DNA from: Dicyema japonicum
Taxonomy: Eukaryota; Dicyemida; Rhombozoa; Dicyemidae
Direction of reading: 5' to 3'
Length of the DNA: 64,000 nucleotides
Assembly: GCA_011109175.1 (NCBI GenBank)
Contig: RDEW01000020.1
Span: 495,273 to 559,272, forward strand
Made by a program: the position numbers and the translations under genes
Notes under the pieces: generated by a model
Database searches by the model: none
Seen by the model: only the letters and a program-made list of their open reading frames with translations
Told to the model about the DNA's origin: nothing
Shown here: piece after piece, positions 15,667 to 62,808 of the stretch
Position numbering within the stretch: the first letter of the stretch is position 1
Layout of the letters: each line of letters starts with the position of its first letter

Positions 15667-15676
15667 TATACGCCAT
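15667..15676. repeat. Target-site duplication of family C element, left copy
   Basis: tatacgccat here and at 18648-18657 flanks the family C insertion and marks its ends. Confidence 0.7.
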
Positions 15677-15695
15677 TATATTTTCTCGTGGCGTC

Positions 15696-23260: not shown

Positions 23261-23269
23261 CCACCTAAA

Positions 23270-24201
23270 TATTTTTATTTATTATATTTAAAATTAAAAA
23301 AATTCTAATTTAAATATTTTTGGAAGGCGCAACAGTTTTTAAATTTTAAATAGCATAATACAGGCGTGTTTTATAAACTTAAGTTGATGGCTTCATTTTT
23401 TGTTAAAACAACCCAAGAATAAATTGATATAATGAAAATAATGGAAGAGAAGGAGATCGTCGATCTAATGACAAGACAAAAAATACCGATTAACTTAAAA
23501 GTCAAAGAATTTTTTATCTATCAATCGGAGGTTATACCTTAAAGACACAAACGGAAACCACAAAATTGTCAATTTCTCTAATAATTAGCGGCCTCGCAAA
23601 TTCATCAATTGACCTATTATGGACAAAGATATTTTTTCGTGAAAAGAGAAATTATTCGGAAAGTGGTGTCAGAATGTGATATTCCATGTAGGAGCATTAT
23701 GTGACTGCTTCAACCTCTAACAAATTCATAATAGGCCTAACAATCCAAGGAGTCAAAGGATCATCAAACGCTTCAATCAGACAATCACATGATCATTATC
23801 TAAGATGATGTCCGAGGATAAGTGTTGGACTAAAAACATAAAGGAAGCAGTTGGAGTGGAATTATGTATGGCGTGGACGTGACGTTACTGGTAATTGATT
23901 CAATGCACGACAATACAACGAGCGAAAATTCGACCAACTCGCACATATTGACGGGATCTAACGTTCGACATTGGAGTGTATCTCCAACTACCGGCTTAAG
24001 GAATACTCATAGAAGCTGGCAGTCAGATTCGGAAAGCTTGAAATCACAGCTTTATAGACATTTCTCTCCCTGTATATCTCTCGTCTCTAATGGCCTGTAG
24101 CACCCTTGTCAAGAGGATTCTACACTCCTTCTTGAATTCTCTCCATACCAGGACGTCGTTCATGCTAATGAGGCCTGGTGCCGTACCTATTAGTTTTCCC
24201 A
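23270..24201 (+). repeat. Integrase-remnant unit, copy 2 (right part)
   Basis: Continues the match to copy 1 from 13653 to 14570, including the NNPRSQ-type motif near 23745 and the end gccgtacctattagttttcc. A few deletions relative to copy 1 (near 23580-23640). Confidence 0.8.
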
Positions 24202-27514: not shown

Positions 27515-28959
27515 ATGGCTAATAAACTTCTAGGCAAGCACCTGGAGAAGGCAAAGTCTGCCATAGCCATAAAGGTGTTCCGATTCTAATAAATTTAAGG
27601 TCAATTCTTACAAGTACACGGGGGCGGTATATGAGGCACTGAAAAAATTCGGACAAATTGAGAAAATGGTGGAGATTGTTGGCATGAGTGATATACCAGT
27701 TTGTTGTTTAAATATAACAGACTCGTTATCTCTACGCTCAGTTCTCGTCCCCCGATTCAGTCACGGAATTGTTTAGATCCACGAGATCCTCGATGCACTA
27801 CAATGATTTCGTTGTCCTACCTTCGCGGATTCTATCATTTAATCCGTCCAGAAAGTCGGGGATCCTCTCTTCGTCTTTATTCTGTGATATCTACATGATC
27901 GAAAAGCAGAGTATGTGGCTTCCAAAAAGAACGAAGGTATCCCTTGTTTTTATGTGGTAGTTGAGTGACCAGATGACTTATTTCTATGACAAATCACGTC
28001 TCACGGAATTCGAATTCGATCTCCGTGCTTTTATTTGCCAGCAACTCGATGACATTTTTTCCGAGCTGATAGACTGCCGTTTTGTCCCCTTTACTGGCAT
28101 CTCATGGAAGTGACCTTGACATCGAACTGCAGTGCTCAAGAACCTGCAAGTTGCCGGAAACAAAAGATAAATTAAACCTTGAGGTCTCGACCATCGACTC
28201 TGAGAGTATCCATGGAAAGAGACAGATTCTCAGCAGAGTGGCCAATTTGATACAGAATTCAGGGTTTTCCCGTACGTTGGAGATCCTAAATGCCAGAGTA
28301 CCCATTATCCGCTTCAATTCTGATCTCTGTGGGATTTGCTGTGACCTCAGTGTAGGAAATTGGTAGTCAGTTGGCTTACTTTAGTGTGAGGAAGATAAAT
28401 TTGTCTTCCCTTTTGCAGTTCTACTCTGTGATTGTCCCTGGATTCCCCATCCTCGTGTGTACCCTGAGGAATTGGGCTAAGTTTAAAAAAGTCGTTGTCC
28501 CGTCTCCCTCTTTTAGTTTGACCAACTTTGGATTGACTCAATTGATTTTGTTTTATTTGATGATGGCACGTGGTGTTCCCCCGTTGTCGAAGGTGATGGA
28601 TTCAAACGGTCCTCTGGTTATGTTACTTGTAGATAATTTCATTTCTCCTAAAGAGTTTGTTGACTTGAAATTAGGTTGGTGGGTCATTTGAGACCTTAGG
28701 TGACACTCTCATGGGGTTTTTTGACTTTTACGCCAATTTTAACTTTAACAAGAAAAAGCTTGACTTGGTGACGGGGAGGGATGTCGCCTTTATCAGTGGG
28801 TACTCCGTTTTCTTGCAGCACCCATTAGAGACGGTTGAAACGAACGTTACTAGGAACGTAAAGGAATATCAGCTGGCCTTTTTCAAAAAGGCTTGCAGAA
28901 CGGCTTACACTGATCTTCATAATAAATCTGGATCTCTTAATTTATTGTTCGCTAAATGA
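27515..28959 (+). CDS. MTPAP: Mitochondrial poly(A) polymerase-like protein with tiny introns
   Basis: Non-canonical nucleotidyltransferase of the MTPAP/PAPD1 group, which in animals adds tails to mitochondrial RNA. Start ATG 27515. Introns read by frame: 27575-27599 (25 nt), 27699-27720 (22), 27937-27960 (24), 28352-28370 (19) and probably 28659-28692 (34). The N-terminal RNA-binding-like region has YEALKKFGQIEKMVEIVGM, RYLYAQFSSPDSVTELF and VLPSRILSFNP. The catalytic region has GSDLDIEL (two Asp), ILNARVPIIRF, GICCDLS (third Asp), ITLR-like NWAKF, SFSLTNFGLTQLILFYLMM, TLMGFFDFYANFNFN and FLQHPLETVETNVTRNVKE. One break near 28100-28118, just before GSDLD, is not explained by an intron, so it is either a sequencing error or a disabling mutation. 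No targeting signal was identified. Confidence 0.75.
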
Positions 28960-34710: not shown

Positions 34711-35446
34711 ATGTCTGGCGATGAATTCGAAAGTTTTGAAACCAAAGTAGACGAAATCAGTAAAAAATAAAATAATTATAATCAGCAAGGTTGATTAAAA
34801 ACATGAATTCACCAAACGAAGAAATTCAACTGAGAGCTCTAGAAGAAGCCGATAAATACTGCCAGCAAACTCAAGGTTAAACAAAATCAATTTTTAGGCA
34901 AAACTACAAGATTTGACAGGAATATTTTTAACAAACCTAAAAAAGATGACGAATCACACCAAAGTAGTTCTCGGAGTAACTTTCAGACCAATTCTTGTTG
35001 TCAATGGAGGAGGATGCTAAGCGGAGAAGTCTTGACCGTAAAAAACGTTACGCAAAAGCCAACGAATTGAAAGATAAAGGAGTGGAGGATTACAAGAGTG
35101 GAAACTATCAACTGGCGTATGAAAATTTTACTGAAGTTGTCTATTCTACAACTTTAGGCGTTGAAAATGACTAAAGATTACGGTGAGGTCTATGGAATGC
35201 GAGGACAGGTACTACTGATGATGGAAAGGTTCGAAGACGCATTGAAGGACTGCGAATCATGCTTAGAAGTTATCTTTAATATTATTTTAGTTAACCAGTG
35301 ATAAAAAAGTCTATGTAAGAAAGCTCAAGTGTCTTATAAAGTTGGGAAGAGACCGAGAAGCATATTCATACTTGGGAGAATGTATCAAACTATTTCCAAG
35401 CTATGAGGAACTGTTTAATAGTAAATTTGACCAATTTAAACGTTAA
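34711..35446 (+). CDS. TTC12: TTC12-like TPR protein, six exons with 22-26 nt introns
   Basis: In animals TTC12 is a TPR/ARM protein needed for axonemal dynein assembly. Six exons join in frame to 206 residues. Introns: 34760-34785 (26 nt), 34876-34897 (22), 34964-34986 (23), 35136-35157 (22), 35269-35290 (22), all GT-AG. The N-terminus FETKVDEITRLIKNMNSPNE resembles TTC12 (VDEI..LI..MN). It continues LLSMEEDAKRRSLDRKKRYA, ELKDKGVEDYKSGNYQLAYE, MRGQVLLMMERFEDALKDCE and LKCLIKLGRDREAYSYLGEC: three TPR units. Vertebrate TTC12 is about 700 residues, so the ARM-like part is missing here. The stop is 40 bp before a family D fragment, so this is either a natural short form or a truncated gene. Confidence 0.8.
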
Positions 35447-37595: not shown

Positions 37596-38639
37596 ATGTT
37601 CTCTGTCAGGTTAATTATTAATTCTAAACATGGGAATTTAACTATTGTTAACATCTTTGATGGGATGGAATCAGCCAGAAGAGCTAGGATTTCTCGTCGA
37701 CATACTGGCGATTTTATCCTGCAGTTTAAGAACTTGGAAGACCTTGAAGATTTCAAAAAGTCAATGAATGATAGTAATCCTTTTGGATTGGGTGGACATG
37801 AGATGGAGGAAGTAAAACTGCCTCCTTCGACTATAATTCTAAAAAATGTTCCGACATGGATAGAGATGGATGAATTAAAGGATTTTCTTCGGTCAAAGTT
37901 GACAGGAGAGTTCCGAGCTGAAAGATTTGTACGCCGTGGTGTTAGCTTGCCTATTGTTAAGCTTGTCTTAACAAGCAGGGGAGAAGCAGAATCCATTGTC
38001 AGATTGGGATTGATTATTGGATTTTTGAAGATGAAAGCGGAATGGTATATAAAACGAGAAATTCAGTGTTTTCGTTGTCAACAGTTTGGACATATTGCTC
38101 GGTTTTGCAAGAACTTAGAAAAGTGTCTACATTGTTCGGGATCACATAGAAGATCTGAATGTAAAGCATCGCATGATACAAAAAATTGTGTTAATTGTGG
38201 GTCGACTACTCATCTGGCAAATTATGGAGGTTGTCCGAAAGCTATGGAAGCCAATCGTGAGAAAATGAAGAAAGTTGCTGAAAAGTCAAAAGTCTCCAAA
38301 AAAGAAGATAAGAAACTTGCCAAATCCGGAAATAGTCATACTATATCAAAAAATGCTAAGTCAGCTTTTCTTGATGGTCGAACTTGTTGGAATATTCCAA
38401 CGGTCAAAAGGGCAACAGTAGAAGCTTCTACTCAGACAGAAGAACCTGTGAAGGGAAAGAAAGAAGAAATCTCAACACAGGTCAATGATGGTGAATGTCA
38501 ACTTGATTATTCACAAACTTTGAAAAAATTAGAGAAAAGCATTATAGAAGTAACGAAAACAAAAAAGGATACGAAGCATTTATTGGATTTGGTGGCGATC
38601 CTAAGAGGAGGGATCAGCCACCAAAAAAATCAGAAGTAA
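37596..38639 (+). CDS. Family B ORF1, gag-like protein with three CCHC zinc knuckles
   Basis: 347 residues. The N-terminal half has an RRM-like or gag matrix-like region (STIILKNVPTWIEMDELKDF, then LPIVKLVLTSRGEAESI). Knuckle 1 is CFRCQQFGHIARFC (from residue 158), knuckle 2 is CLHCSGSHRRSEC (from 177) and knuckle 3 is CVNCGSTTHLANYGGC (from 198). A basic coiled segment follows (EANREKMKKVAEKSKVSKKE). It binds the element RNA in the ribonucleoprotein. The last codons contain a -1 slippery site. Confidence 0.85.
   Translation: MFSVRLIINSKHGNLTIVNIFDGMESARRARISRRHTGDFILQFKNLEDLEDFKKSMNDSNPFGLGGHEMEEVKLPPSTIILKNVPTWIEMDELKDFLRSKLTGEFRAERFVRRGVSLPIVKLVLTSRGEAESIVRLGLIIGFLKMKAEWYIKREIQCFRCQQFGHIARFCKNLEKCLHCSGSHRRSECKASHDTKNCVNCGSTTHLANYGGCPKAMEANREKMKKVAEKSKVSKKEDKKLAKSGNSHTISKNAKSAFLDGRTCWNIPTVKRATVEASTQTEEPVKGKKEEISTQVNDGECQLDYSQTLKKLEKSIIEVTKTKKDTKHLLDLVAILRGGISHQKNQK
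38624..38630 (+). promoter_or_regulatory. Candidate -1 ribosomal frameshift heptamer
   Basis: A AAA AAT in the ORF1 frame, nine bases upstream of the ORF1 stop (TAA 38637-38639). A -1 slip continues straight into ORF2 (TCA GAA GTA ATC). ORF2 has no ATG before its first endonuclease motif, so a fusion by frameshifting is plausible. Confidence 0.55.
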
Positions 38640-41203
38640 TCAGGATAACCCTGATTAATGCCCGCTCTCTTCGGAAGCGGGCTTCAGAGCTGACTGCATT
38701 GGTCAGCACAGTGCATATGGATGTTTTGATAGTAAATGAGACGAAGATCAAGAAGGGAAGTTCTTTTAAACTTAATGGATTTTCATCAATTGATATTCCG
38801 TGGAAGAAGGGTTCTATTTCTGGAACTGGAACTTCGATTTATTATAAATCTAATTTGAATACGAAGAGACCAAGAATTATTGAAGAAGATGTATGTGAAC
38901 TAGTCAGTGTGCAAATACAAACAAATATTGGATGGATAACAGTTGGAGGAATTTATTCTAAGAGCTTACGTGAGTACCCTTGGATCATTGAGAAATTTTT
39001 TAACGAAAACGTGAATTCGATTTTGGTTGGGGACATGAACGCAAAGCATGTTGATTATGGATGTGTTACAACAAATCAGGATGGAAAATGTCTTATAAAG
39101 TGGATGGAATCAGGAGAATTGAAAATTTTGACGTCAGCAGAAATAAATCACTATGCAACTTATAGTGGTGATAAACTTGGATTGTTCATAATGCCTCTGA
39201 CGATGAGTGAAATGTGTGATCCTCCATATATCGAAAATGACATAGGAAGTGACCACATCCCACAAACGATTGAATTAAAAACTGGTCCGGTTTACACACG
39301 ACAGTTATTCATTGGATATGATGTCAGCAAAATTGATTGGAATCACTTCAATTTCTACATCAGGCTGAAAATTGGTAATGTTTGTGATTTGGGGATTTCG
39401 AAACCGGAAGATATCGACATTCTGGATAACAAAATAAGATCTTTGTTGTTAAGTTATCTGGAAAATTATGGAAAAAGAAAAAATCTGTTGCCGCAGGAAA
39501 ATATGATAATAGGAGTAGAAGAACGCTCTTTGCGTCAGGAGAAGAATAAGTTAGAAAATAAATTAAAGAGGTGTTGGGATATCTTCGACTCTCAAGAACT
39601 TAAAATGCAGATCAAGTTAGTGAAGAAGAAAATAATGGATGTTGTAAAGAAGAATGAAGAAAAAGTATGGAAAAGAGAATGTTCAAAGTTACGTCGACAG
39701 AACCCAAAATTTTGGAAACTATATGCAAGAATGAATTCTCCCAGTAATAAGAATGAAGAAATATCTCTCAAGTCAGATGATGGTCTCACTATTCCAAAAG
39801 AAGAAATTCCAAATGTTTTACGTCGACAATTGTCCAAAATTCAAGAGATAGATCCGGCATCTTTTATTCCGATAGAAGTACAAGATACAAGAAGTAGTTA
39901 TAAAGAAAAGTCGAAATTGAGTGGTCCCTTGTGTCATCCTATAACGCTGGAAGAAATAAATGCTGCAATTAAGGGTTGCAAAAATAAAGCACCAGGGTGG
40001 GATTTTATCCCAATGAGTATTTTCAAGAACGCAGGCCCAATTTTGATTGAGTGCCTAAAAATATTATATAATTCTTCTTGGAGTTTTGGTCATGTTCCAG
40101 CTTATTGGAAACGAACAATTGTACGCATGGTTGTGAAAAAAGGAAAGCCAAGGTCAAAAGCAGATAGTTATAGGCCAATTAGCCTAGTCTGCTCAATATC
40201 GAAAGTTATGGAAAAAATTGTTTTCAATCGTCTATCAAGGCATGTTGAGGATAATAATTTTCTCTCTGATAATCAACTGGGATTTCGGCATAAAAAAGGG
40301 ACTGGAGATTGCTTTAAAGAGCTAAGATCTGCAATCGAAATTTCACGAAATAAAAAGGAATTTCTTACAATAGCATGTTTGGATATAACAAAAGCGTTTG
40401 ACAGTGTTTGGCACTTTGGACTTGTTGATACGTTGTCAAAAGCAGAAATTGGGAAAACTGCGTTATTATGGATAGAAAACTTTCTTTCAAAAAGAAAGTC
40501 ATATATACGTGTTGGAAATTTAATTTCAAAGAAAATTGAATTGCGAAGAGGAGTTCCACAGGGTTCAATTCTCAGCCCGCTACTCTTCAATTGCGTAATG
40601 AGAGATTTGCCGAAAACAGAGAGCGTAAATAGTCAAATGATTATTTATGCTGATGACATTCTTGTGCTTGATTCAAGCATGAATAAACAAATTTCATGGA
40701 AAAGGGTGGAATCCCATATTACTAAGATTGGAAAGTGGTGCCAAAACAATGGGTTGACTCTATCGAGGGAAAAAACAACAGTCACTTGGATTGCAAGTAA
40801 AAGAAAAAATATTAATCAATGTGTGAATACTGGGGATATAAAAATCTCTGAAACATTGAAGTATCTCGGATTGTTGATAGACCGAAGAGGATCTTTCAAG
40901 GAACATATTAAAACACGAAGAAAGAAAGCTACAGGAATGTTGAAATCTTTAATTCGATTTCATTTGGAGCCTGAAACTTTTCTTTTTGTGTATTCGGCGT
41001 GTGTTGAACCATTCTTGATATATGGTTATCAAGGATGGTTTAGAACAAAAGAAAGTGATGTCTTTGTCAAAAAATTGGAAAAGTCCAGAAGATTTGCGAT
41101 TAAATTGGCATATGGACTGGACTTAAAATCCAATATCGAAGAGGATTACGACCTGAAAGTCAGAAAGATAGAAAAATTATTACATCACTTATGGAAAATG
41201 TGA
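38630..41203 (+). CDS. Family B ORF2, APE-type endonuclease and reverse transcriptase
   Basis: 857 codons from the slip site, no stop. Endonuclease: ITLINARSLRKRASEL (Asn), MDVLIVNETKIKKG (Glu), SILVGDMNAKHVDYGC (Asp, Asn) and NDIGSDHIPQTIEL (SDH), so all catalytic residues are visible. RT: NAAIKGCKNKAPGWDFIPMS, ADSYRPISLVCSISKVMEKI, LDITKAFDSVWHFGLVDTL (motif A), GVPQGSILSPLLFNCVMRDL (motif B), IIYADDILVLD (motif C) and LKYLGLLIDRRGSFKEH. The first in-frame ATG (38714) lies after the first endonuclease motif, so initiation there would lose the catalytic Asn. It looks active or recently active. Confidence 0.9.
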   Translation, partial: SEVIRITLINARSLRKRASELTALVSTVHMDVLIVNETKIKKGSSFKLNGFSSIDIPWKKGSISGTGTSIYYKSNLNTKRPRIIEEDVCELVSVQIQTNIGWITVGGIYSKSLREYPWIIEKFFNENVNSILVGDMNAKHVDYGCVTTNQDGKCLIKWMESGELKILTSAEINHYATYSGDKLGLFIMPLTMSEMCDPPYIENDIGSDHIPQTIELKTGPVYTRQLFIGYDVSKIDWNHFNFYIRLKIGNVCDLGISKPEDIDILDNKIRSLLLSYLENYGKRKNLLPQENMIIGVEERSLRQEKNKLENKLKRCWDIFDSQELKMQIKLVKKKIMDVVKKNEEKVWKRECSKLRRQNPKFWKLYARMNSPSNKNEEISLKSDDGLTIPKEEIPNVLRRQLSKIQEIDPASFIPIEVQDTRSSYKEKSKLSGPLCHPITLEEINAAIKGCKNKAPGWDFIPMSIFKNAGPILIECLKILYNSSWSFGHVPAYWKRTIVRMVVKKGKPRSKADSYRPISLVCSISKVMEKIVFNRLSRHVEDNNFLSDNQLGFRHKKGTGDCFKELRSAIEISRNKKEFLTIACLDITKAFDSVWHFGLVDTLSKAEIGKTALLWIENFLSKRKSYIRVGNLISKKIELRRGVPQGSILSPLLFNCVMRDLPKTESVNSQMIIYADDILVLDSSMNKQISWKRVESHITKIGKWCQNNGLTLSREKTTVTWIASKRKNINQCVNTGDIKISETLKYLGLLIDRRGSFKEHIKTRRKKATGMLKSLIRFHLEPETFLFVYSACVEPFLIYGYQGWFRTKESDVFVKKLEKSRRFAIKLAYGLDLKSNIEEDYDLKVRKIEKLLHHLWKM
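38660..38682 (+). other. GC-rich hairpin downstream of the frameshift site
   Basis: gcccgct (38660-38666) pairs perfectly with agcgggc (38676-38682), leaving a 9-nt loop. It stands out in AT-rich DNA. The spacer from the slippery site is 29 nt, longer than the usual 5-9 nt, so its role as a stimulator is uncertain. Confidence 0.45.
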
Positions 41204-42117: not shown

Positions 42118-44250
42118 TCTTAGAGTTCGTATACATTCTCATATACTTCGTTTATCTCGCTGTTATAATAATTATCTGATCTCCTTTTTCTCCAAAATAT
42201 ATATCCTCCAAAAGCAATCAAAAGCACAACAATAAAAGTACAGAAAAATATCAGAATAACAATACTACTCAACTTTGACTCAAATGACGATATTCCTGTT
42301 GTTTTGGTAGTTTTTGTGTTTTTCATGTCATATTTGAAATATAGAATAAAGTAGTATCTAAAGGTTGAATTTTTGTGAGGAATATTTTATCACGAGTGTA
42401 TAATCCTCTGGTAGTTGAGTTATTATGAGAGATCCAGTTTGGGGGTCAAAGTCAAAGTATTTATGAGATTCGTCTGAAATATAATATCTCAAATCGGCGA
42501 TTTCCTTAGAGACTGATTTGGCTGTATTCACAATACTGTAGTTAACCATCATACGACGAGTGTCAAAAACAGTACCAGGTTCCACATAAGACCCAAAATA
42601 GTTATATTTAAACATATTTGTGATGTTTATGACTTTAACAAAGCAATTTGTTTGAGTGAATAGTTGTTGTGGTCCTGAGTCATAAGCCTCAATGATAACA
42701 TTATATATTGTTTCTTTGGTTATTTCTCTTATTTGTATAAACTATTCCTGTATTTGAATCTATTTTGAATAAATTGTCAGTGTTATTCTTTGAAGGACAG
42801 TCAATAATACTCAATTCATTGATTGTATGTATTCTATATTTGACTTGGGAGATTTCTTATGAATCACTGTCTTCTGCTTTTATAGTGAATAATGATTGTT
42901 CTGATGGTAAGTTTGCCATAATATATTGTCCACATGTTTTTTTCATGAATATTGGTGGATTGTCATTTACATCCAGTATAACAATATTTTTTGTAGTTTT
43001 TTTGTTATTAGTTGTTAGTGTTATCGACATATTAACATTATTTTCAGTCTCATAATCAAATACTCTGTTTGATAATGCATTATATGAATGTTTATCGTAA
43101 ATAAAATTAGATGTATTATGGATATCCCAGTCTTCGTTAATTCCAATATCAACTGATGTTTTAATTGGCATTTTTCATAAATTTTTAGATGCATAGCCTT
43201 TTCTAATATGCTTTTAGAAATAATCTAACAATAATATTAATAATATACTGTCAAGTTTGTTATGTAAACATCTTGTCCTCTATCCCATGAATAAGGACAC
43301 CCATCATCAGTTAATTTAATACATGTAATATTAATAGTTGTGACGGGAATCACACTATTATAGTCATTCACATACACATTGTATTCATTCTTTACTGATA
43401 AACTCAAAACTAATTGCACGTGAGTTTGCAATACATGAAATTGTATCATTGGCTGTAGCAGTTGAAGTCTCCAGTAATGAAGTGGTCTTATTAACAACAA
43501 AGTATTGGATTTGCCCTTCCATGAGAATACTACATCTCCCTTTGCAGTCACATTGTTGTATTTGGGGATTGGGTAGTTAATTTTAACATCAACGTAATTG
43601 AGATGTTCAATGTATAATTGTCAATGGCAATAATTCTGAATGATATCTTAGTGGGTTTGAAATTTATAAGTGATTTTAAAGTTAAGTTTGTATTATTTTC
43701 AATTAATATAAAATTATTGTTTCCAAATAATATGTAATGAATAGTATCATATTTGTCAGCATCTGTGGCTTTAGGGATTGATAAAGTTGTCCCAATATTC
43801 AAGTCACTAACATTCCAATATATTACTCGACTATTAAACCTCGGTCTATTATCATTTATATCCAAGACCTATTATGTTTTATTTAACTGAGTGTATACCT
43901 TAACTATCAGATTTACCACTATTGTTTTAGATCCTTTATAAAGATATATTTAAATCTAAGTTCGTCATTTATAATTGGCATTTGAAAATCGTAGTCGATT
44001 CTTGATTTTACCTAAAATATTACAAATAAACACAAACTTTAATATTGTTTGAGCTGTCTAAATAAAAATATAAGTATCAAAAACAATCTATAGCCAGAGC
44101 AATTAATGGCCAGATCATTGCAGAAATTGCCAATAGTATATCCAATGGGTAATTCCTCCTTGATGGTGTAATGAACTTGGTATGAATATATTAGGGGCAT
44201 CCATATCATCAGCATTAATGCATTCTACGTTACTACTGATAATAACAAAC
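42118..44250 (-). pseudogene. Cadherin-family gene with tiny introns, frame-disrupted
   Basis: Cell-adhesion receptor of protocadherin type. From 44200 down: MDAPNIFIP, IKEELPIGYTIGNFCNDLA, VKSRIDYDFQMPIINDELRF, VLDINDNRPRF, IGTTLSIPKATDADKYD, MPIKTSVDIGINEDWD, IVILDVNDNPPIFMKK, FTIKAEDSDS and FKIDSNTGIVYTN. At the end come a transmembrane helix (SIVILIFFCTFIVVLLIAFG) and a short tail RKRRSDN...YENVYEL. LDxNDNxP and A.DxD are cadherin calcium-binding motifs. In-frame introns: 43869-43898 (30 nt), 43395-43419 (25), 43225-43248 (24). An in-frame TAA follows EDSDS near 42858, and single-base frame breaks occur near 43930, 43590, 43172, 42730 and 42360. Either a decaying gene or a poorly polished stretch. 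Confidence 0.7.
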
Positions 44251-49330: not shown

Positions 49331-49712
49331 TTGATTATATTCAATAGTCCAGTTATTTGGAGGTAAAACTCATGTTATTTGAACTGTCTCGATTATTAAA
49401 TTTTTGACAAAATCTTCTATTTTCAGATATTATTTTAGAAATAATCGTGTATTATCTAAACTACATCAAAATCACAACGCTATAACTATAAATATTTTCT
49501 AATTCCATATACATTACCAATAATTTAAACTCAGTCACATATCCATGATTAATCTGAACATATATAATTAACCTTTCCATTTCATTAACATGTTTGCAAA
49601 CAAACTCACAAACATTAATATATTGAATAATGTGTTACGTTAATAATAATCATTACTACTTTAATTATAACCTCTCATTTAATTTTATATGAGTAGTTAA
49701 TAAAGAAAATAC
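49331..49712. other. AT-rich intergenic DNA
   Basis: No coding signal, just downstream of the PSMB2-like gene. Confidence 0.4.
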
Positions 49713-50453
49713 TTATAAACTATAAGGTACATTAAGGTCTGTTGAGAACACTTTATCTATATGACTCCAGGATATATCATCTCTCTCCATCTTCCAGACT
49801 TTAATAAAATAAGAATAGACTTGTCCAACATTTACAATATTTTTTACCACAACTACAGTTGCTGATGGCATCATTCAGAGTTTGTAAAGCATTCCTTATA
49901 TATTTAGGTTTATATACTCCTAGGCTATTAATTATTAAACAAACTTACGAGTAGTCAAAGAAATTCATGAAACTTGCTGACCCAGATCCAATGCCTTTTC
50001 CACAGCTTTTGGATATTTTTCTAAATTTGTCGATCTTTATTATATCGAATCCAGAGTCAATCTTTCCCGCTAAAAGGACCTCCTACACATAATATTCACA
50101 TTTACTGTAACGCGGCATCTGTGCTGCATATAATCACGTATTTTCTCTGCTAATTGATTTACATTAATGTGGTAACTATTTCTTACAAAAAATTCACTTT
50201 TTCTAAGTTTACAACAAAAACCTCTCAAATGAGTTGATTTTGGAACATAAATCTGAAACCTCAATTTGTGGACCAGCAATTCCAACTGCAATATCCACAG
50301 TGACTTGTATCATTCTAAAGCACTCTGCTTTCATAACTAAAATAGAATTATCCCATTACAGTGAGATATATCATTAATAGGGAGAGAATCAGTACAAATC
50401 ATTACTCCATTACCATATTTGAAGGCCACAATTGTTAGTGTGTAATCCTTCAT
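49713..50453 (-). CDS. PSMB2: Proteasome subunit beta, PSMB2 (beta 4)-like, with 19-28 nt introns
   Basis: Non-catalytic beta subunit of the 20S proteasome core. Six exons join in frame to 207 residues. Introns: 50337-50359 (23 nt), 50203-50221 (19), 50083-50105 (23), 49925-49948 (24), and a last one best placed at 49820-49847 (28; shorter and longer in-frame alternatives exist). Text: TIVAFKYGNGVMICTDS, DIAVGIAGPQIEVSDLCSKI, HINVNQLAEKIRDYMQHR, EVLLAGKIDSGFDIIKID, CGKGIGSGSASFMNFFDYSL, YIRNALQTLNDAISNCSC. The residue aligned with the catalytic Thr1 is Leu and there is no propeptide, as in beta 4; NDISHFMKAECFRM also fits beta 4. The exact beta type is less sure than the family. Length matches the usual 200 or so residues. 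Confidence 0.75.
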
Positions 50454-50953: not shown

Positions 50954-51108
50954 ATTAATAGCACTTTCGAAGAACCAAAAATGTAATTTATTTAATTAAG
51001 GTTCCGCTTGTGCCGTATTTTTTTTCAGGTTATTTTTTTCCCACAATTCTCTTGACCAACTTCCTCCAAGCTCCGCGGTTACAGGCAGTTATTCCGAGCG
51101 TATCCAGA

Positions 51109-52328
51109 TCATCTCCAGTTTTCAGCTTTCGTCCTACATTGGTCAGGTCCTTGTGTAGAACCTCTGGCAAAGTTATGCGAGGTCTCCCACGGAACGAGGC
51201 AGAAGTAGTTATCCATAGCTATTTTAGCAGGCGTCATCTGGCTCATTCGAAGGATGTGACCAAACAGACGGCATCTTGATTCCAGTATATCCAGACTCAA
51301 TGGTCTTGTATTACATACTTTGTATAGATTCTTGTTTGTAATTTTTTTCGGCCAGTTGATGCCAAGCAACAGTCGGAGTTGCTTACGATGGAAGGCATCT
51401 AGTTTGTCCATTACCGCTTCTGAGACACCCCAGGTTGCAGCGTTGTACATTAGGACTGGTTTCACGAAGGCATTATATAGTCTCACACGTAATTGTGTGC
51501 TAATTTGTTTACGATGATTCCGGACTACTCCCATTTTTCTAAAGGCCGCGACGGACAACATCTTCTTGTTGGTGATATCCTCAGCGTCTCCGAGCAACGA
51601 CTCCAATTTTTTACAGTATCTCCATTTTTCATCAGTTCGGGTTAGTTCACGGCGTATGGTAATTGTCTCCGTCTTTTCCGTATTGATTTTGATAAACTAT
51701 TTTTCTAGGACATCTGGCATCCTTGTCCGTATATAGTTTAATGTTTTCTCGTCGCTGGATATATAGTCGATATCATCTGCATAAATCACTTCAGTTTGAG
51801 GTAGATCGCCAATTAATAGTCTGAAGTCTCTGAGTGCCGCCTCCAGATATGTCACAAAAAGTACCGGTGACAAGGAATCACTTTGCGGTACCCCGAACGT
51901 TGTCTCGAATGGGACAGACTCCAAATTTCCAAAACGTACAATTAGCTGCGTTGTTCCAAGTAATAGGCGGATCATTCTGACACTGTCCTCGTCAACCAAC
52001 TTCTCCAAGATATCCAAAAGTCTCCCTCTGTGTATAGAGTCAAAGGCTTTGGACATGTCCATGCCAAGGATGTCAATAGCCCCTTGTACTTTTGATGTGT
52101 TGCACAAAGCCATCGATGTCCCCAGACCACATCAGCTGTAGATCTCCCTGACCTGAATCCGCTTTGACCGTGAGAGAGAAAGTTTTCGATGTCAGATCCA
52201 ATCCTGTTCAGCACTGTAAGTGATAGTGTCTTGCGTAGAGTCGTCAATAGTACGATGGGTCTTAAATTCGTTAAGGGGCCTTTAGCTTTACCCGGTTTTT
52301 GTAGTGCAATTAGTGTGCCATTACCCAC
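51109..52328 (-). CDS. Family A reverse transcriptase (3' segment)
   Basis: Three overlapping minus ORFs. GNGTLIALQKPGKAKGPLTN, LRPIVLLTTLRKTLSLTVLN, SHGQSGFRSGRSTADVVWGH, GMDMSKAFDSIHRGRLLDIL (motif A), FGVPQSDSLSPVLFVTYLEA (motif B), VIYADDIDYISSDEKTL (motif C), LGxLLGDAEDITNKKML, MYNAATWGVSEAVMDKLDAF and RLFGHILRMSQMTPAKIAMD. The order is complete through the C-terminus with two or three frameshifts. Confidence 0.85.
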
Positions 52329-52381
52329 ATCCAGTGGTGAGTTGTATATGGTTGAGCTGGTGACGTGGCTCTATTCCACAC

Positions 52382-53950
52382 ATGTCTTTTTCGTGCTTTT
52401 CTTCGAGATCTTTCACTATTAGCTCGTTCAATGTAAGAGGATTAAAGTCGGATACTAAGAGAAGAAATTTATGCGTGGATCTTGGATCGTACAAGGTAAC
52501 CGTGGCGTGCTTACAGGAAACGAAAGTAAAAGGCGGACTAGATGAAATCAACAATGATTTCCGCCTGATTCTGCACCCTTCGAATTGCCCACACTACGGC
52601 ATGGGATTTGCAATACAAAAAGAACTGAACAATCGAATCCACAAGACTGTGTTTTACAATTCAAATACTGTGAAAGGAACAATTCCATAATCTCCATTAT
52701 TAATGTATATTCACCAACTTCGGTGAGAGTATCAATCATTGGAGACCAACTAGACGACTTCTATTCCTCCCTGTCGCAACTATATGCATCTTTGGAAACA
52801 TCGTTCATGACATACATCGCCGGAGATTGGAATGCAAAGGCAGGACGTGGGAGTAGTCACGAAGAATTCATAGGAAGCCATGGAAGGGGGATCAGGAACC
52901 ATTCTGGAGAATCGCTTATCGAATTTTGCAATACATTCAAACTATTTCTATGCAACACTGCTTTCAGGCACTCAGCAAAACATAAGACGACATAGAGCTG
53001 CTACCGAAAGGACAAATCTGGGACTATCAAGCCTATATATAACCAAATAGATTACATTATTTGCAAACATGCCTACAAGGCACTGCTAACAGATTCTCGG
53101 AGCTACAGTGGGACACTAGTAGATAGTGATCACAGATTGGTTGTGGCACGTTTCCTTTTCAAACGATATTTTGGGGTTTCCAAAGCGGCTGGCATGAGGA
53201 TATCTGAGGGGAGGTTCGCAGTAGAGCAACTCTGCATGGTGGGACCGACTCGGGAAAGCTATCAAAATACATTGAGAGAAAAGATCAGAGAGTGGAATAA
53301 AGAAAAAATGCCTGGGGAGCTGTGGCAAGACACCATCGATGCAATAAAGTGCGCGGCCCATTCAACAGTCGGAGTAAAACCGAAGCATTTCAACGGGCAC
53401 TATGACCACGAGCTTGAAGAACTATCCAAATTGCAGAGGAACCTACGTTTACAGGTCGAAACCTGCCAGGACCAGGCAAAGGAACACACTCTAAGAGTCA
53501 TGCGGAACCAAACCCTGTATAAAATAAAGAAAAGAACGAGGGAAATAAAGGAAAATAAACTTGCTGGAATGGCTAAAGAAGTAGAAAGACTCAAAAACGG
53601 AGCGCAGATGTTCAAGGATGTTCACTACTACATATAGACACGCAGTCATCAAAAATCACAATACATGATCAGTTTGGAAAGACTATGTTAAACAAAAATG
53701 AAATTCTATTGGCCATATCCAGCCATTATCAGCAGGCCTTCAATGAAAACCACGGGGAAAAATCAAACAATTCGATGGTGAAGCACGAGAACTAAATATT
53801 CCGATAACGATTCTGGAAACAAAAAAAGCCCTGGACAAACTGAACAACAATAGAGCTGCTGGCCCTAACAACATAAATGCAGAACTTCTCAAATATGCAC
53901 CGACCGAGATCTCTGAACTATTAACTGAGATATACAACAAAACATTCAAA
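52382..53950 (+). CDS. Family A endonuclease and linker (inverted 5' segment)
   Basis: Plus strand: SSRSFTISSFNVRGLKSDTK (first motif), VACLQETKVKGGLDEIN (catalytic Glu), INVYSPTSVRVSIIGDQLDD, TYIAGDWNAKAGRGSSHEEF (Asp, Asn), FLCNTAFRHSAKHKTT, YNQIDYIICKH and DSDHRLVVARF (SDH-type). Then a linker ORF (53137-53637) and ALDKLNNNRAAGPNNINAEL (RT start). Frames break at about 52690, 52995 and 53640. Confidence 0.85.
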
Positions 53951-55209: not shown

Positions 55210-55736
55210 ATGGTTTGTTACGCTTTGACTTTTTTCCTTTATAGGCCACAAGATTAAAGAAATCGAGGAACTTGAGAGGACACGTGAGTCATGGACACGG
55301 TAGAGTGGGTATGGAGGATACATTAAAAATAAGGCAAACATCGAAAGCATCCTGGAGGACGTGGAAAGGCTGGTGGATTAACTCACCACCGAGCATACTT
55401 TGACAAATAGTAATTTTAAATATAAAACCAGTCACCCTGGATACTTTGGGAAGGTGGGAATGCGTAAATTCCACACTTTGAAGCATCATAAGATCATGCC
55501 TACCACGAATGTAGGGAATCTGTGGTCAATGGTCCCCGAGAATGAGAGGTCTGCTAATTTTCCAGTGGTTGACCTGTGCAGGAAAGTACTAGTCGGCGTA
55601 ATTTTAGGGATATTTCAAACTCCTTGGAAGTGGGGATGCCCCTCCCAGGCCCCTCATTGTGAAGGCCCTCAGTTTTAGTCAGTCTGCTGTTCGTAAAATC
55701 AAAGAGGCCAAGGGAGTCTGTCTCATTAAGTGTTGA
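55210..55736 (+). CDS. RPL27A: 60S ribosomal protein L27a (uL15), five exons with 22-32 nt introns
   Basis: Structural protein of the large ribosomal subunit. The exons join in frame to 141 residues (vertebrate form 148). The ATG at 55210 is followed at once by a 32-nt intron (55213-55244). The others are 55309-55333 (25), 55410-55431 (22) and 55586-55607 (22), all GT-AG. Protein text: [96 protein letters not shown]. It ends in Cys before TGA. The L15-type signature region is intact and no frame break is present, so it looks functional. It is the strongest proof that the tiny introns are real. Confidence 0.95.
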
Positions 55737-56784: not shown

Positions 56785-57475
56785 GCGGATGGAACTACGC
56801 AATAGTGAATGTTGGAGGAAAACCGTAAAGCTTGGCTCTCTTCACGGAGACTCCGAAGACATTGCAAGAAGAAAATTGTTATCTACGGTTACTATGCAAA
56901 AACTTATGAAATGTTGGATAAGAAAATGCTCGGTCGGGCCATCACTCCGACTCAGATTGTATGAGGCGTTCGTGAGGCCCATACTAACATACAACTCTGG
57001 GACGTGGGGAATTTCGAAAACGGACGAACAAAACCTTGACTCCTTTCACAGAAGGCAACTTCGGTCTCTCTTGGGACTAAAGTGGCCAATGCGTGTAGGG
57101 AGTGAAAATTTATATAGAAGATGCGGTTCCGGACCTCTGAGCACCATGATCATGAAGGCTCGCTGGAGATTGTTTGGCCATATTCTCAGATTGGAACAAG
57201 ACACGCCAGCAAACGTCGTCATGGAAGAATACTTCGAAACGTCAGGGGAGAAGTTCAGAGGTCGTCCAAGAATAACTCTTCCGGAAGTCCTTAATGGTGA
57301 CCTGAGATCAGTAACCAGACTACTAAAGGACGGTGAAGACCTTAGTAGTCTGCGGCACTTGGCATCGGACAGGAGGGGATGGGAAAGGCTAATTAAGAGG
57401 ATTGTTCAGACGCGGCACGAATAGAATTATAGTTTATATGATTCTATGTAGTTGCTTATAATAATAATAATAATT
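56785..57475 (+). mobile_element. Family A C-terminal RT domain and 3' end
   Basis: The 211-codon ORF 56789-57424 reads VKLGSLHGDSEDIARRKLLS, LRLYEAFVRPILTYNSGTWG, LDSFHRRQLRSLLGLKWPMR, ARWRLFGHILRLEQDTPANV, then SDRRGWERLIKRIVQT. It ends in the family A 3' tail (cggcacgaatag ... aataataataat). 5'-truncated insertion with an intact open C-terminal part. Confidence 0.8.
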
Positions 57476-57835
57476 ACTAATTATTCAATTAGTTCCCGCC
57501 AATATAATTAACGTTGCTCTCACGATAACAACAGAGAACAATTTGACAAGCCACTGGGTCTCACGTACGTCGTGGCTTTTCAGGGCAACCAGAAGTCCCA
57601 GTCTTTAGAGAAAATGAAACGATTTCTCCCCTTATTCATCCAGTTATATCAACCACAACGCTATGGAGCGTGACCCAGTCCAAGATCCCTTCGTATTTAT
57701 CCTTCTTGTCCTTCTCTGTTTCTTTAGCGTTATGTAATGTGTCTACCGCACTCCCGATGATGTTTGAAGGACATAGTCGATACATGTAGCATATCATACC
57801 AATGGTTTTCCCTCCTCTAACGGATAGTTAAATTG
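57476..57835 (-). mobile_element. Family D 3' fragment
   Basis: Reverse complement follows 24360-24720: the C-terminal endonuclease part with a Lys-rich loop (KETEKDKKDKYEGIL near 57700), then VQLDESNKGRNR-like and HDVRETQWLVKLFSVVIVRA. Diverged and broken. Confidence 0.6.
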
Positions 57836-58089
57836 ACCATGAATTTGACTAATTACAATTATTTAACTATTCAACACAAAATATAGCTGTGAACTAAGTA
57901 AACTAAGTGCTAGTAATTAATAATTTTCATGTGTTCCTCAAGATAGATATCCTTACTTTCGAAATTAGGCAGACCTTCTACAGAAACGGTCATATATTCA
58001 ATGTTCCCTTAATCTATTAATTAACATTGAATGAAAAATTGCAAAGTTTACTGATAAACATTTATTATTTATTTTATTATTAACCCAAA
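57836..58089. other. AT-rich DNA, no gene recognised
   Basis: No coding signal. Confidence 0.4.
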
Positions 58090-58320
58090 AAAACCAATGT
58101 TAATTTCTTGAAATTAATTAGTTGATCCCGACAATCCTGATGAGCTTTCTTAGCTTCTCCCGATGTTGGACTTTTGACCCAACACAGTCACGGTACGGGC
58201 GGGGGACAGTGTTCGTGAGAAAACCAACTGGGGTGATGTGCTTTTGGAAACTGATTGACACAGGACGGTCTGTCGACGACAGGTCCTGCTGAAGGGTCCA
58301 AAGTTAACTGATAAACATTG
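58090..58320 (-). mobile_element. Family C-type 3' end
   Basis: Reverse complement reads to a C-terminal basic segment and ends gaagctaagaaagctcatca, ggattgtcgggatcaac and an AT-rich tail. Similar ends lie at 18560-18640 and 59150-59275. Confidence 0.4.
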
Positions 58321-59149
58321 TATGGTTAACTGATAAATATGGTATTTTTGTCAATTAAGTCAAAGTTTTATGTTTATTAAATTAAATATTAAATTTAAAT
58401 TTATTAAAATTGATGTTGTTTAGTAAGAATATTGTAATATTTATTAGATGGGAGTATGTAATTCGAAAAAATTACTTAAATTATTTTCTTCAAAGCGTAC
58501 AGACTCAGCCAAGAATGCCTATTATAGAAATTTTTATAACAGTATGTTATCATTTACCAAATAGCTCAAAAAATCATAAAACGAAGATCTACTGATTGCG
58601 TAATTTGTTTGGGCTCTTTCCATATGGGCTCTACTGCAGCCAGACTTCCCTGTATGTGTCTCTTCCACGTTGAGTAGTCATATTTAATGTATTGAGGTGT
58701 ATTTGTGGTTGGTTTGATAAAAAGATTAGTTGCCCTCTCCATTATGACTCTAAGTTGTCCCAGTTGACTGTCCCTTATGATTAGCATATTTTGTATAATA
58801 AATTATATTTATGACTAAACTCTACTAGAGTATTCTGTTTTATTGGATTAGTAGTTAACCACGTGCTTTTGTTAACCCACCACACGGATACTCAACTTTT
58901 CTGGTTTCCTACAAGATTCTCCTTCCGTGGTCATAGAATGATCATGCTGTTTCCGGAGGTGTCTGTTTTGTTCCTATGGGCTGATTATGAGGGACAAGCA
59001 TCAGCACGTGTCAAAGATTGCTTAAGTTGATTGTTGGGATCTTCAAAGAAGCACAGGATTCCACGGTTGTCTTTTATTGTGACGATTAAGAGAGGACTAT
59101 GTTGAGGGTAGACTTTTGAATTAGTCGTAGTTATTATTATTATTACCCC
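58321..59149. other. No gene recognised
   Basis: A 73-codon minus frame at 58787-58566 (text RDSQLGQLRVIMERATNLFI and STWKRHIQGSLAAVEPIWKE) has no family I can name. The remainder is AT-rich with scattered LINE-like words near 58960. Confidence 0.3.
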
Positions 59150-59280
59150 CAGGATCACTGGGTCAAAGAGAAAGAAATAAAAGGTCTCATCTAACTAAGT
59201 GATCCCAGACCGACAAAGGTGAGGACGAGTCCGGCGGGGTCGAGAATCCTGAACAGCTCTTCTCATTGGACATGGCATCG
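59150..59280 (-). mobile_element. Family C-type 3' end scrap
   Basis: Contains tgatcccagaccgacaaagg and acctcgtc-type text similar to other family C 3' ends on the minus strand. Confidence 0.35.
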
Positions 59281-59459
59281 GCTCAAAATTTCTGTATGAT
59301 TGTAGATAATTCGATAGTATTTGGAATAGAGGGCAGCTCGGTAGCCGTAGTACTAATAAAGCAAATTATAGAGACCACGTGGATGTTGTAATATGTTTAA
59401 TGATTATGACATAAATGTGAATATTATTATTTTATAAACAAATTTCTAAATGGAATAAA
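59281..59459. other. No gene recognised
   Basis: A frame FCMIVDNSIVFGIEGSSVAV precedes the transporter remnant but shows no clear link to it. Confidence 0.25.
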
Positions 59460-59888
59460 TTGTAAATCTGTTGAATGATGTAACTAATGAGTCTGTCCGA
59501 ATAAAAAGACACGCTGTTAATAGGATATATAGTGGAATACTCATATCAGCGTTGTCAGAGTATTCTTTAATCGATAAAACCCAGGAATGTGGATTAACGG
59601 GACCGAGTTTATTTGTATGGGTGATAACTGGATTATGGCCACCACTGTGAGAATGTCATACGCGGAACTGGGGGAGATTATGCGTATTTACAACAAGTCT
59701 GTGGAAATATGTTCGCATTTCTATATTAGTGGAATGTTCTTATAATAGTAATGTTGTACTCCAGTAAAGGCATTGGCGTTGGAAATATACTCTTCGATCC
59801 ATTTATAATGAATGTGAGCCTCCCTATTTGTCAATTCTAATATCCACAATGTCCATTATTTAATATTATTTGTATTCGCATTGGCTGT
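59460..59888 (+). pseudogene. SLC7-type amino-acid transporter, N-terminal part
   Basis: Light-chain (LAT-like) amino-acid transporter. Frames read IYSGILISALSEYSLIDKTQ, ECGLTGPSLFVWVITGLW, RMSYAELG, GGDYAYLQQVCGNMFAFLY, a stop, WNVLIIVMLYSSKGIGVGNI and LFDPFIMNV. These follow family positions SGIF...P.GVL, SLIVW, YAELG, GGDYAYI..FG...AFL and the following helices. About eight residues between YAELG and GGDYAY are missing, there is an in-frame TAG after AFLY, and the frame changes twice, so the gene is decayed. It is cut at 59889 by a family A LINE and resumes at 62809. Confidence 0.7.
59874..59888. repeat. Target-site duplication of family A element, left copy
   Basis: attcgcattggctgt, 13 of 15 identical to attctcattggctat at 62809-62823. 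Confidence 0.65.
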
Positions 59889-62808
59889 TGATGAGGTGGT
59901 GACGTGCCTCGTTTCTTCCTTGTACAACAGTTAAGAAAAATGTCTAAAAAGCAGAAGATACAAGAAAATATGCTTGCCCTAAAGCTTCTTACGTTCAATG
60001 CTAGAGGAATATCTAAGCCTCAGCCAAGAAATACTCTCTGCAGCCAAGAAATACCTAAAAGATATAACGTTTCTATTGGCTGTATACAAGAGACGAAATT
60101 ACGTACTATCTTGATTAAAACCACGGAAGATAATGACTAATATGCCTATTCAGTGACTCAAAACACTATGGTCTTGGATTCGCCATTCACAGAAAACTAT
60201 CATCTGACATCAGAATGACAGGATCTGTGTAATACAGATCCGTCTGAACAATCAATGTTCCCCTAAAAATACACTAACAATTATAAATGTATATGCACTA
60301 CACTGTGGAAGAGTGGCAAAAAACCCGACCGAACTGGATGAATTCTACTCAGCATTATCAAAGACGTATAATGAATATGAGTCGTCCTCACTTATATTCA
60401 TTGCTGGAGATCTAAATGCGAAAATTGGAACAAAAAAGAACTCAGAAGATACCTTCATGGGAAGACACGGACGTGGGAAAAGAAAGTTTCCTGGAACCAT
60501 ACTTGGCCATTTCTGCACGGCAAACAAACTGTTCTTGTGTAACACCGCATTCTCTCATCATGCATGCCACATAACCACTTGGATGGGCGAACGAAGAAAC
60601 CCAGATGGAAAACTAGTCCCTATATACAACCAAATTGATTATATTATATGCCGGATCAATGACAAACGCTCTCTTATAAACGCACGCTCATACGAAAGTT
60701 CAACAACTGTCAGCGATCACAGAATGGTTATTGTCACCTTCAGCCTGGCGAAACATGGGATCAAACATAACAAACAATAATAATGAGAATACAAGAAATG
60801 GATACGGTAAAACTGATCTCTCATACAGTCAAAAATTACCAAAAATACATCTGCTCTCATCTGAAGGACCTAACAGTAGGAATTTCGTGGGATCGTACAA
60901 AGTATATAATAAACGAAGCAGCAAGCCAGTACATCGGCACGCGGGAGATGGCCAGTAAGGGTCGGACAATACATACAGAACTAGCAAAGGAGTTAAAAAA
61001 ATCCATACAAAAAAACTAAACAAAAAAGACTATAACAAGAGAAAAGCCCTTCAGGGGCAGAGGGATCAAATTTGTAGAAAAATCAGGAGACTGAACAAGA
61101 CACTCCACAAAGAAGAATTACTTCGCGAAATCAATGAAGTATCCAAACTAAAAGATAATTCACAAATGTATATGCCCGCTGTTTATTACGCCACACAAAC
61201 TGGAAGGAACGAATAATCATCAAAGACAAAAATGGCAAGACATTACTGAATACTGAAAAGCGAGCGGGTAATTGCAACAAATTTTGAGAAACTTTTCAAT
61301 GTGACTACAGCAATCCTCCCATTCAAAGGAAAGCCTATACCATTGAAAGAACCAATTATAATTTTGGAAGTAAAAACAGCATGTCAAAAGCTAAAAATAA
61401 CAGAAGCCCTGGACCAGATACAATAAACCCAGAATTACTGAAATACGGCCCTGACCCCCTTTTTGAAAAAATCGATACACTAGTAAATGAAATGTTTTCA
61501 ACTAACTCAACTTTCCTCCTGGGAACGGAATTACTAATACCTATACAAAAACCCAAAGGACCGGTTGAAAACTTACGACCAATTATATTATCAAATTCTC
61601 TACGGAAAGTCTTAGCTAACATTGTATTGGAACGAATATAAGGACCCGCCTATGACTACCTACCCGAAAGTCAAAATGGGTTCAGAGAAGGAAGATCAAC
61701 AGCTGATACAGTCTGGAGTCACAGATGGAGATGTGCAACACATCAAAGATGTTGCAATCCCACCCACATTCTGGGAATAGATCTATCAAAATCTTTTGAC
61801 TCGGTTAACAGGAACAAATTGATGACAGTGCTGGAAGGGTTTATTGATGAATCGAGTCTAAGAATGATCCAAATCCTTCTATCTAACACAGAGCTCCTTG
61901 TGAGAGTTGGAAAAACCTACTCAAGAAAAGTTGAAACAAACACAGGCACTCCTCAAAGAGACTCTTTCTCTCCGCTACTATTCACAATATACTTGGAGGC
62001 CGCTATGAGGGAACTGAGACCATTATACCAAGGAAAAATAGAAGAAGTGATTTGCGCTGATGATGTCGACCTAATTTCTGAAGACAAAGAACTCCTGGAA
62101 TATGTACTGAAAAAGCACCAGATACACTTAGGAAATGGTTTCTCACGGTGAACAGGGAAAAAACAGAATAAGAGGAATGAATAACTCTCTCGAAGAAAAA
62201 TGGAGACACACAAAGAAACTTGGCTCCCTATTAGGAGATAGTGAAGATATCATACGGAGAAAAACCATGGCAAACTCGGCATTACAAAGGCTGAAAAACC
62301 TATGGCTAAAACGGAAAGAGAATAACATAAAACAAAGGATAATATTATACGACACCTTTATCAAACCAATCTGGGAGCTGAGCCACTTCAAAAGAGGAAT
62401 TGGAGAGGCTATACTCGTTTCACAGGAATCATCTAGAAACATAACTGGATTGTCCTGGCCATCCAAAATCTCGCGGAAAGGACTGTACATTAGCTCTCGT
62501 TGGAGACTTTTTGGACACGTCCTAAGGTTGGACCCGATATACCCCCCCTCCCCCGAATATCGCAATGGAAGATTACTCCTCCTCCAATGTAAAACGCTTT
62601 CGTGGATGACCGAGAACAACCCTCCTGGTCGTTTTAAAAAACGATCTGAAAGCCGTAAAGAAAACATTGGCATCTGGTGACGATCTGGACTCATTGGGGA
62701 CCTAGCTAAGAACAGAAGAGCTTGGAGCAAGCTAACTAATTCTCTTATATTTTTTGCTGCACATGCAAGGCTATAAATATTATGGCTCTCGTGAAAGTGC
62801 TAATAATA
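59889..62808 (+). mobile_element. Full-length family A LINE (RTE-like)
   Basis: About 2.9 kb, from the 5' motif ggtggtgacgtgcctcg to an (aat)n tail at 62800-62808. Endonuclease: LALKLLTFNARGISKPQPRN, IGCIQETKLRTI, IFIAGDLNAKIGTKKNSEDT, FLCNTAFSHHACHITTW, YNQIDYIICRIND, TVSDHRMVIVTF. RT: AKNNRSPGPDTINPELLKYG, VENLRPIILSNSLRKVLANI, LGIDLSKSFDSVNRNKLM, ETNTGTPQRDSFSPLLFTIY, EVICADDVDLISEDKEL. C-terminus: LGSLLGDSEDIIRRKTMANS and RWRLFGHVLRLDPIYPPSPE. Motif C reads CADD. Several frameshifts. The tail word ctataaatattatggctctc (62771-62790) is shared with the SINE at 9.66 kb. Confidence 0.85.

Follow-up and report, generated by a model that had tools for sequence, protein, structure and literature searches.

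Tiny introns are already on record for dicyemids and are not in themselves new. In the available parts of the published reports, dicyemid introns have a mean length of 26.2 nt in a set of 16 (PMC2222250), a median of 27 nt (PMC6543705), and a genome-wide mean of 38.2 bp according to the report of the Dicyema japonicum genome, of which 67.5 Mb were assembled, with an estimated size of about 65 Mb and a GC content of 36.7% (PMC6736024). A comparison of cDNA and genome sequences in Dicyema revealed introns of the same tiny kind (PMC2222250). The 41 dicyemid introns analyzed by Irimia and Roy in 2008 had a 5′ signal of 0.5 bits, weaker than any other known, and, in the text available, no branch signature (PMC2483917); the donor sites examined here agree with the former, but they are accompanied by an adenine peak at positions −7 and −8. 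Orthonectid introns, with a median of 57 bp (PMC6543705), are unlike the major introns of 20-26 nt described below.

Among other eukaryotes, three systems invite comparison. The ciliate Stentor has introns of 15-16 nt, ordinary snRNAs and a branch adenine near the 3′ end; the present genome also has tiny introns and ordinary-looking snRNAs, with a probable branch adenine in a similar place, but no minor snRNA was found in Stentor according to the text available (PMC9505925), whereas genes for U11, U12 and U6atac are found here. Blastocystis, like the genome examined here, is compact and retains minor introns; the 253 that Larue and Roy identified are enriched in AT-AC ends and have a median of 39 bp (PMC10639083), whereas the four described here measure 48-58 nt and lie beside major introns of 20-26 nt. 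That survey excluded introns below 30 bp, and the string 'dicyem' is absent from its main text (PMC10639083). In Trichomonas, as here, two length classes, one of about 25 nt and one of 50-196 nt, occur in one genome; both classes there are GT-AG, U12-type introns being reported absent in the available text (PMC12316389), while the longer class here is AT-AC and U12-type.

The sequence analyzed, referred to as the window, is a stretch of 64,000 nucleotides from a D. japonicum assembly of 64.7 Mb in 191 contigs; its GC content is 38.1%, and that of five other stretches of the assembly is 36.1%. Our best explanation of the sequence evidence, to which we assign a probability of roughly 0.7, is that this genome combines tiny major introns of about 22-26 nt, an ordinary-looking major spliceosome, and a retained minor system with longer AT-AC introns.

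RPL27A and neighboring genes in the window

According to a preliminary description of the window, the gene for the ribosomal protein RPL27A (uL15) becomes readable only when GT-AG introns of 32, 25, 22 and 22 nt are removed. Both the coordinates and the lengths proved right (Table 1). From the ATG at 55210 to the TGA that ends at 55736, the joined exons encode 141 residues, and the homology expected of them was found: residues 1-139, i.e., almost the entire protein, match L27a/uL15 chains in the PDB, with a best E-value of 5e-56. None of the four intron lengths is a multiple of three, and the unspliced locus contains no single open frame. The sole Pfam match to the uL15 family in the whole genome is this locus, in one exon. 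When GT-AG or AT-AC ends were imposed, a reference-guided aligner without intron-length preference gave the same boundaries for introns 2-4; when no splice dinucleotides were required (free mode), introns 2 and 3 were unchanged and a 10-nt gap took the place of intron 4. The gene finder described below recovered all four introns and also called a spurious fifth, 58 nt long, at the stop codon. Of 2835 protein matches, the 120 listed come from widely different groups, among them apicomplexans, insects, sponges and molluscs; none of the listed names is a dicyemid, and RPL27A alone gives no placement.

The same style of intron had been described at further loci of the window. For the TTC12-like locus, the gene finder returned identical introns, the identity of the gene being tested at the level of its TPR domain. 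The MTPAP-like and PSMB2-like loci fared less evenly. In the former, the first three introns (25, 22 and 24 nt) agree with the gene-finder model, which then predicts introns of 23, 17, 22, 24 and 25 nt in place of those given as 19 and 34 nt. In the latter, introns of 23, 19, 23 and 24 nt were recovered by the gene finder, and the fifth was predicted as 22 nt rather than 28; the alignment of this divergent protein to human PSMB2 is too weak to confirm any of them. A RING-finger gene fragment (Pfam zf-RING_2, 1.3e-8, with a trimmed gene model) and a cadherin-like locus were also recognized, the latter from the motifs DVNDNPP and DINDNRP near 43.0 and 43.9 kb on the minus strand, with a Pfam cadherin match below threshold. 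Low-scoring gene-finder output in the window contains introns of 22-25 nt too, which were left uncounted, as they reflect the length preference of the finder itself.

Table 1. Annotated features of the window and the four AT-AC introns found elsewhere in the genome
Feature	Position or locus	Strand	Length and type	Basis and remarks
RPL27A (uL15) gene	55210..55736	+		spliced reading and PDB match
RPL27A exons	55210-55212, 55245-55308, 55334-55409, 55432-55585, 55608-55736	+		
RPL27A intron 1	55213..55244	+	32 nt, GT-AG	immediately 3′ of ATG; outside reference-aligned part
RPL27A intron 2	55309..55333	+	25 nt, GT-AG	spliced reading and reference aligner
RPL27A intron 3	55410..55431	+	22 nt, GT-AG	spliced reading and reference aligner
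RPL27A intron 4	55586..55607	+	22 nt, GT-AG	spliced reading and aligner; lost in free mode
TPR-repeat protein gene (TTC12-like)	34711..35446	+		gene finder; Pfam TPR
TPR gene introns	34760-34785, 34876-34897, 34964-34986, 35136-35157, 35269-35290	+	26, 22, 23, 22, 22 nt	
MTPAP-like gene	27515..28959	+		gene finder; Pfam MTPAP-like central domain, 6.1e-13
Divergent proteasome beta (PSMB2-like) gene	49461..50453	−		gene finder; Pfam Proteasome, 1e-8; 3′ end of model uncertain
RING-finger gene fragment	58370..58784	+	predicted introns 33, 23, 23 nt	gene finder
Cadherin-like transmembrane gene	42200..44100 (approximate)	−		DVNDNPP and DINDNRP motifs
CACNA1 AT-AC intron	L067		53 nt	ungapped junction against solved structure
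GGPS1 AT-AC intron	L072		52 nt	ungapped junction against solved structure
SMAP AT-AC intron	L071		48 nt	ungapped junction against solved structure
PLC AT-AC intron	L070		58 nt	junction adjoins alignment gap; other 3′ ends possible

Several further observations concern the gene content. Long open reading frames at 15418-18374, 20279-25400, 37596-41203, 51030-53795 and 56789-62705 of the window resemble LINE-type retrotransposon proteins by eye, some perhaps belonging to more than one kind. There are two divergent PSMB2-like genes, the one in the window and another at locus L026, besides a clearer PSMB2 (L018); they may be lineage-specific duplicates. Gene types characteristic of animals are present, namely a CaV2-type calcium channel (E = 2.5e-209), spectrin/Ca-insensitive EF-hand proteins and RPEL proteins, and argue against a protist. 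One predicted RPEL-repeat protein (L057, G000:C126:1200001-1210000; Pfam RPEL, 1.2e-6) is presumably similar to myocardin-related factors, and a further gene (L061) is one we take to be condensin-like; the Pfam search with the latter gave no match.

Length and splice signals of the major introns

To identify introns beyond the window, we used a gene finder that combines codon use, splice weights and intron length, seeded with RPL27A and with proteasome exons located by Pfam. All ten predicted proteasome proteins match PF00227; three of them (L014, L015 and L030) had been trimmed before the search, because some predicted genes overran the real gene. At non-proteasome loci, 12 genes scored above 18, compared with none on the reversed sequence; the 12 include RPL27A, a training gene, and one at L045 that reads like a retroelement. 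In 80 introns from 20 gene loci, each lying between homology-matched ends, the median length is 23 nt and the mean 24.3 nt; lengths of 17, 18, 19, 32, 48 and 50 nt occur once each. These values are close to the published mean of 26.2 and median of 27 nt, as expected if the introns are of the dicyemid type that had been proposed for them; like the published ones, they measure about 22-30 nt and lie in animal genes, each of which they interrupt several times (PMC2222250, PMC6543705). Lengths divisible by three account for 17 of 78, i.e., less than one third (one-sided p = 0.018). We also tried a codon-only version of the finder, in which splice weights were dropped and intron length was left flat; it proved too weak: it gave a comparable reading at 7 of the 20 loci, 14 of 79 introns agreed with the weighted finder, and its other introns ranged from 10 to 118 nt.

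Because the gene finder prefers short introns, and because the codon-only version was too weak, we turned to the reference-guided aligner, which uses a protein reference, has no intron-length preference and applies the splice-dinucleotide rule only optionally. In nine well-aligned genes it placed 38 major introns, of which 37 are 20-26 nt long and one is 211 nt; the divergent PSMB2 paralogues (in the window and at L026) aligned too poorly and were left out of these counts. Thus, the tiny-intron style claimed for other loci extends across the genes examined. When the aligner had to use GT-AG or AT-AC ends, it gave 27 major introns in seven genes, all 22-26 nt long, after removal of eight pieces that were neither GT-AG of 15-70 nt nor AT-AC of less than 70 nt; one of these pieces is the SMAP minor intron of 48 nt, which had been placed with a shifted boundary. 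With GT-AG required, U2AF1 has six introns of 22-26 nt, and the clearer PSMB2 gene (L018, G000:C137:1852743-1855991) has introns of 20, 23, 24, 24 and 211 nt. Major introns are thus not all tiny. The length of the 211-nt intron, which is GT-AG, was also kept when splice dinucleotides were not required. In free mode many lengths remain at 22-26 nt; several boundaries shift or break up, most severely in PSMA5 and PSMA1. The alignments support the view that shrinkage has brought the ordinary GT-AG introns into a narrow length range of about 22-26 nt.

Core components of the major spliceosome are encoded in the genome. Rfam models matched U2 snRNA above the cut-off in 22 of 27 cases and U6 snRNA in 9 of 10, while the best of 11 U1 matches lies 0.5 bits below the cut-off. 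All three are multi-copy, and their recognition stretches appear standard by eye in the copies inspected. The U1 and U2 genes (L002-L009, L034-L045) are dispersed, and their copies differ in sequence. U2AF1, U2AF2 and SF1 are all encoded; over 186 residues, U2AF1 shares 65% identity with its human counterpart. The residue S34 of human U2AF1 is known to affect 3′ splice-site choice, and at the corresponding position the protein encoded here (L085) has a threonine.

The donor sites carry little information. In 78 introns, the intron side beyond the GT amounts to 0.17 bits at +3 and about 0.02 bits at each of +4 to +6, and the exon side shows a weak preference (0.54 bits at −1); the 5′ consensus GTRAGT was not recognizable in the major introns. 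The mean match to CAG|GTAAGT is 4.59 of 9 positions in real introns versus 3.56 in exonic GT decoys. In a comparison with 215 GT..AG pairs of 21-28 nt located in exons belonging to the same genes, the best single discriminator of real introns is A+T content, with an AUC of 0.85, followed by the U1 match with 0.74 and a pyrimidine at −3 with 0.73; combined, these features reach a cross-validated AUC of 0.92. Toward the 3′ end, adenine is found in 56% of 75 introns at −7 and in 43-45% at −8, compared with 15-33% elsewhere from −15 to −5, and the value at −7 was reached in none of 5000 shuffles. The set behind the donor and adenine statistics was partly chosen by the splice-weighted model; in the 27 introns free of that choice, placed by reference only and with no splice weights, adenine reaches 56% at −7 and 52% at −8. 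This adenine is probably the branch point.

AT-AC introns and the minor spliceosome

One match each above the Rfam cut-off was obtained for U12 (85.4 bits), U11 (67.6 bits) and U6atac (37 bits, against a cut-off of 33). In 14 prokaryotic control genomes, the searches for U12, U6atac and U11 gave weak matches in 3, 8 and 1 genomes, respectively, none of them above the cut-off.

We scanned the genome with two patterns of the U12-type signature, differing in the gap allowed between the 5′ and branch sites. At gaps of 4-34 there were 23 matches, versus 24 in the reversed control; that is, the pattern is not enriched in this range, which nevertheless holds all four introns described here. At gaps of 35-65 there were 17 matches versus 6 in the control, several being repeats of each other, and reading 12 of these sites disclosed no intron in a recognizable gene. 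In all, 35 of the 40 pattern sites were read (23 of 23 and 12 of 17), the other five being copies or near-copies of those read, judging by their letters. Coding continuity and protein matches single out AT-AC U12-type introns in recognizable genes at four of the 23 sites, namely in CACNA1, GGPS1, SMAP and PLC (Table 1). Eight of the other 31 sites have, at the thresholds applied, open frames on both sides (L073, L074, L076, L079, L081, L088, L092 and L097). A further pattern site, L069 (G000:C115, around 188874), falls in a predicted alpha-actinin-like gene whose introns are mostly 20-27 nt long and whose product combines a Ca-insensitive EF hand and a spectrin repeat.

All four introns start with ATATCCTTTTT and carry the signals ATATCCTT and TTCCTTAAY; the 5′ site RTATCCTT and the branch site TTCCTTRAY are present in 4 of 4, as they must be in introns selected by that pattern. 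Judged by the signature, the consensus branch adenine lies 46, 45, 41 and 43 nt from the 5′ end. The flat-length aligner, from which PLC was left out, reproduced the lengths of the other three, also in free mode; boundaries shifted in SMAP when splice ends were required and in all three in free mode.

Gene-finder models of these four genes contain 25 predicted major introns, all within 22-26 nt, versus four minor ones of 48-58 nt. One of the 25, in CACNA1, is probably false, because the reference alignment reads through it. A complete separation by length of 25 major from 4 minor introns would arise by chance in 1 of 23,751 orderings, and that of the 10 major and 3 minor introns placed by the aligner in 1 of 286. 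The coexistence of tiny major and longer minor introns in one genome is, at the level of sequence, well supported.

Explanations considered and their implications

The major introns would be excised by a spliceosome with ordinary-looking core snRNAs and the proteins that first recognize the 3′ end. With a branch adenine at −7 or −8, an intron of 22 nt would have its branch about 15 nt from its 5′ end, so that U1 and U2 would have to act in turn on overlapping RNA. The two particles may be guided by the GT and AG dinucleotides, A+T-richness, the pyrimidine at −3 and a fixed distance.

Might the proposed gaps not be introns at all, being instead errors of sequencing or assembly, pseudogenes, or sites of translational bypassing? 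The single-frame reading is indeed broken at every one of them. They are, however, bounded by GT and AG and tightly distributed in length in many conserved genes, even where the aligner has no length preference; the core snRNAs, U2AF and SF1 are present; and similar introns appear in the published comparison of Dicyema cDNA and genome sequences, as far as its available text goes (PMC2222250). We regard this explanation as having almost no chance of being right. Only slightly better placed, and still very improbable, is the idea that the AT-AC introns are spliced by the major spliceosome and that the minor snRNA genes are relics. The U6atac score, 4 bits clear of its threshold, leaves some room for it, as does the scope of the search, which, among the components specific to the minor system, covered U11, U12 and U6atac. 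Set against it is the correspondence, judged by eye, of the signals in all four introns with an intact branch-binding stretch in U12 and with AAGGAGAG in U6atac, with which they can pair.

Why the minor introns should be the longer ones is more evenly contested. In the minor system, both splice sites are recognized at once through one U11/U12 particle. It is conceivable, at rather less than even odds, that minor introns shrank less because this particle, reading both sites together, needs more room. Slightly stronger, and still tentative, is the proposal that the two spliceosomes differ in the minimum length of their substrates, about 22 nt for the major and about 48 nt for the minor (41-46 nt to the branch), as U11/U12 takes both ends together and U1/U2 are under no such constraint. 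A mechanical floor for minor introns is, at the level of four introns, a hypothesis; the median of 39 bp in Blastocystis, in the portion of that study available, means that a floor near 48 nt does not apply to all species (PMC10639083). A competing account, to which we give a comparable and again not quite even chance, attributes the difference to history or sampling: the minor introns may be few and slowly changing, or the strictest AT-AC ones may be those detected. The small number (n = 4) and the strict-consensus patterns favor this account, as do the shorter minor introns of Blastocystis and the covariation of minor and major lengths across many species (PMC10639083). The scans, however, admitted gaps from 4 up to 65, and those of the four introns all fall within 26-31.

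No paper linking CACNA1, GGPS1, SMAP or PLC with minor introns was found in the literature searched. An animal with tiny introns in which the minor ones are roughly double the length of the major ones appears to be without precedent in that literature, subscription papers such as Ogino 2010, reportedly a work on dicyemid introns, lying outside it. What is added here, namely a minor spliceosome, AT-AC introns and a probable branch position, goes unmentioned for dicyemids in the available text of PMC2222250, PMC6543705 and PMC6736024.

Most introns of such genomes would escape gene finders with a minimum intron length of 30-50 nt, much as the preliminary description had anticipated for these genes, and likewise surveys that exclude introns below 30 bp. 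Concrete candidates for tests are at hand in the four named AT-AC introns and in the probable position of the branch. The major introns raise the question of how a spliceosome of ordinary appearance copes with 22 nt, and a genome that has very short major introns and, in the same genes, longer and strictly conserved minor ones could separate a general pressure toward compactness from the limits of each spliceosome. If the two spliceosomes do differ in their minimum substrate length, dicyemids would be a natural experiment on the limits to intron size.
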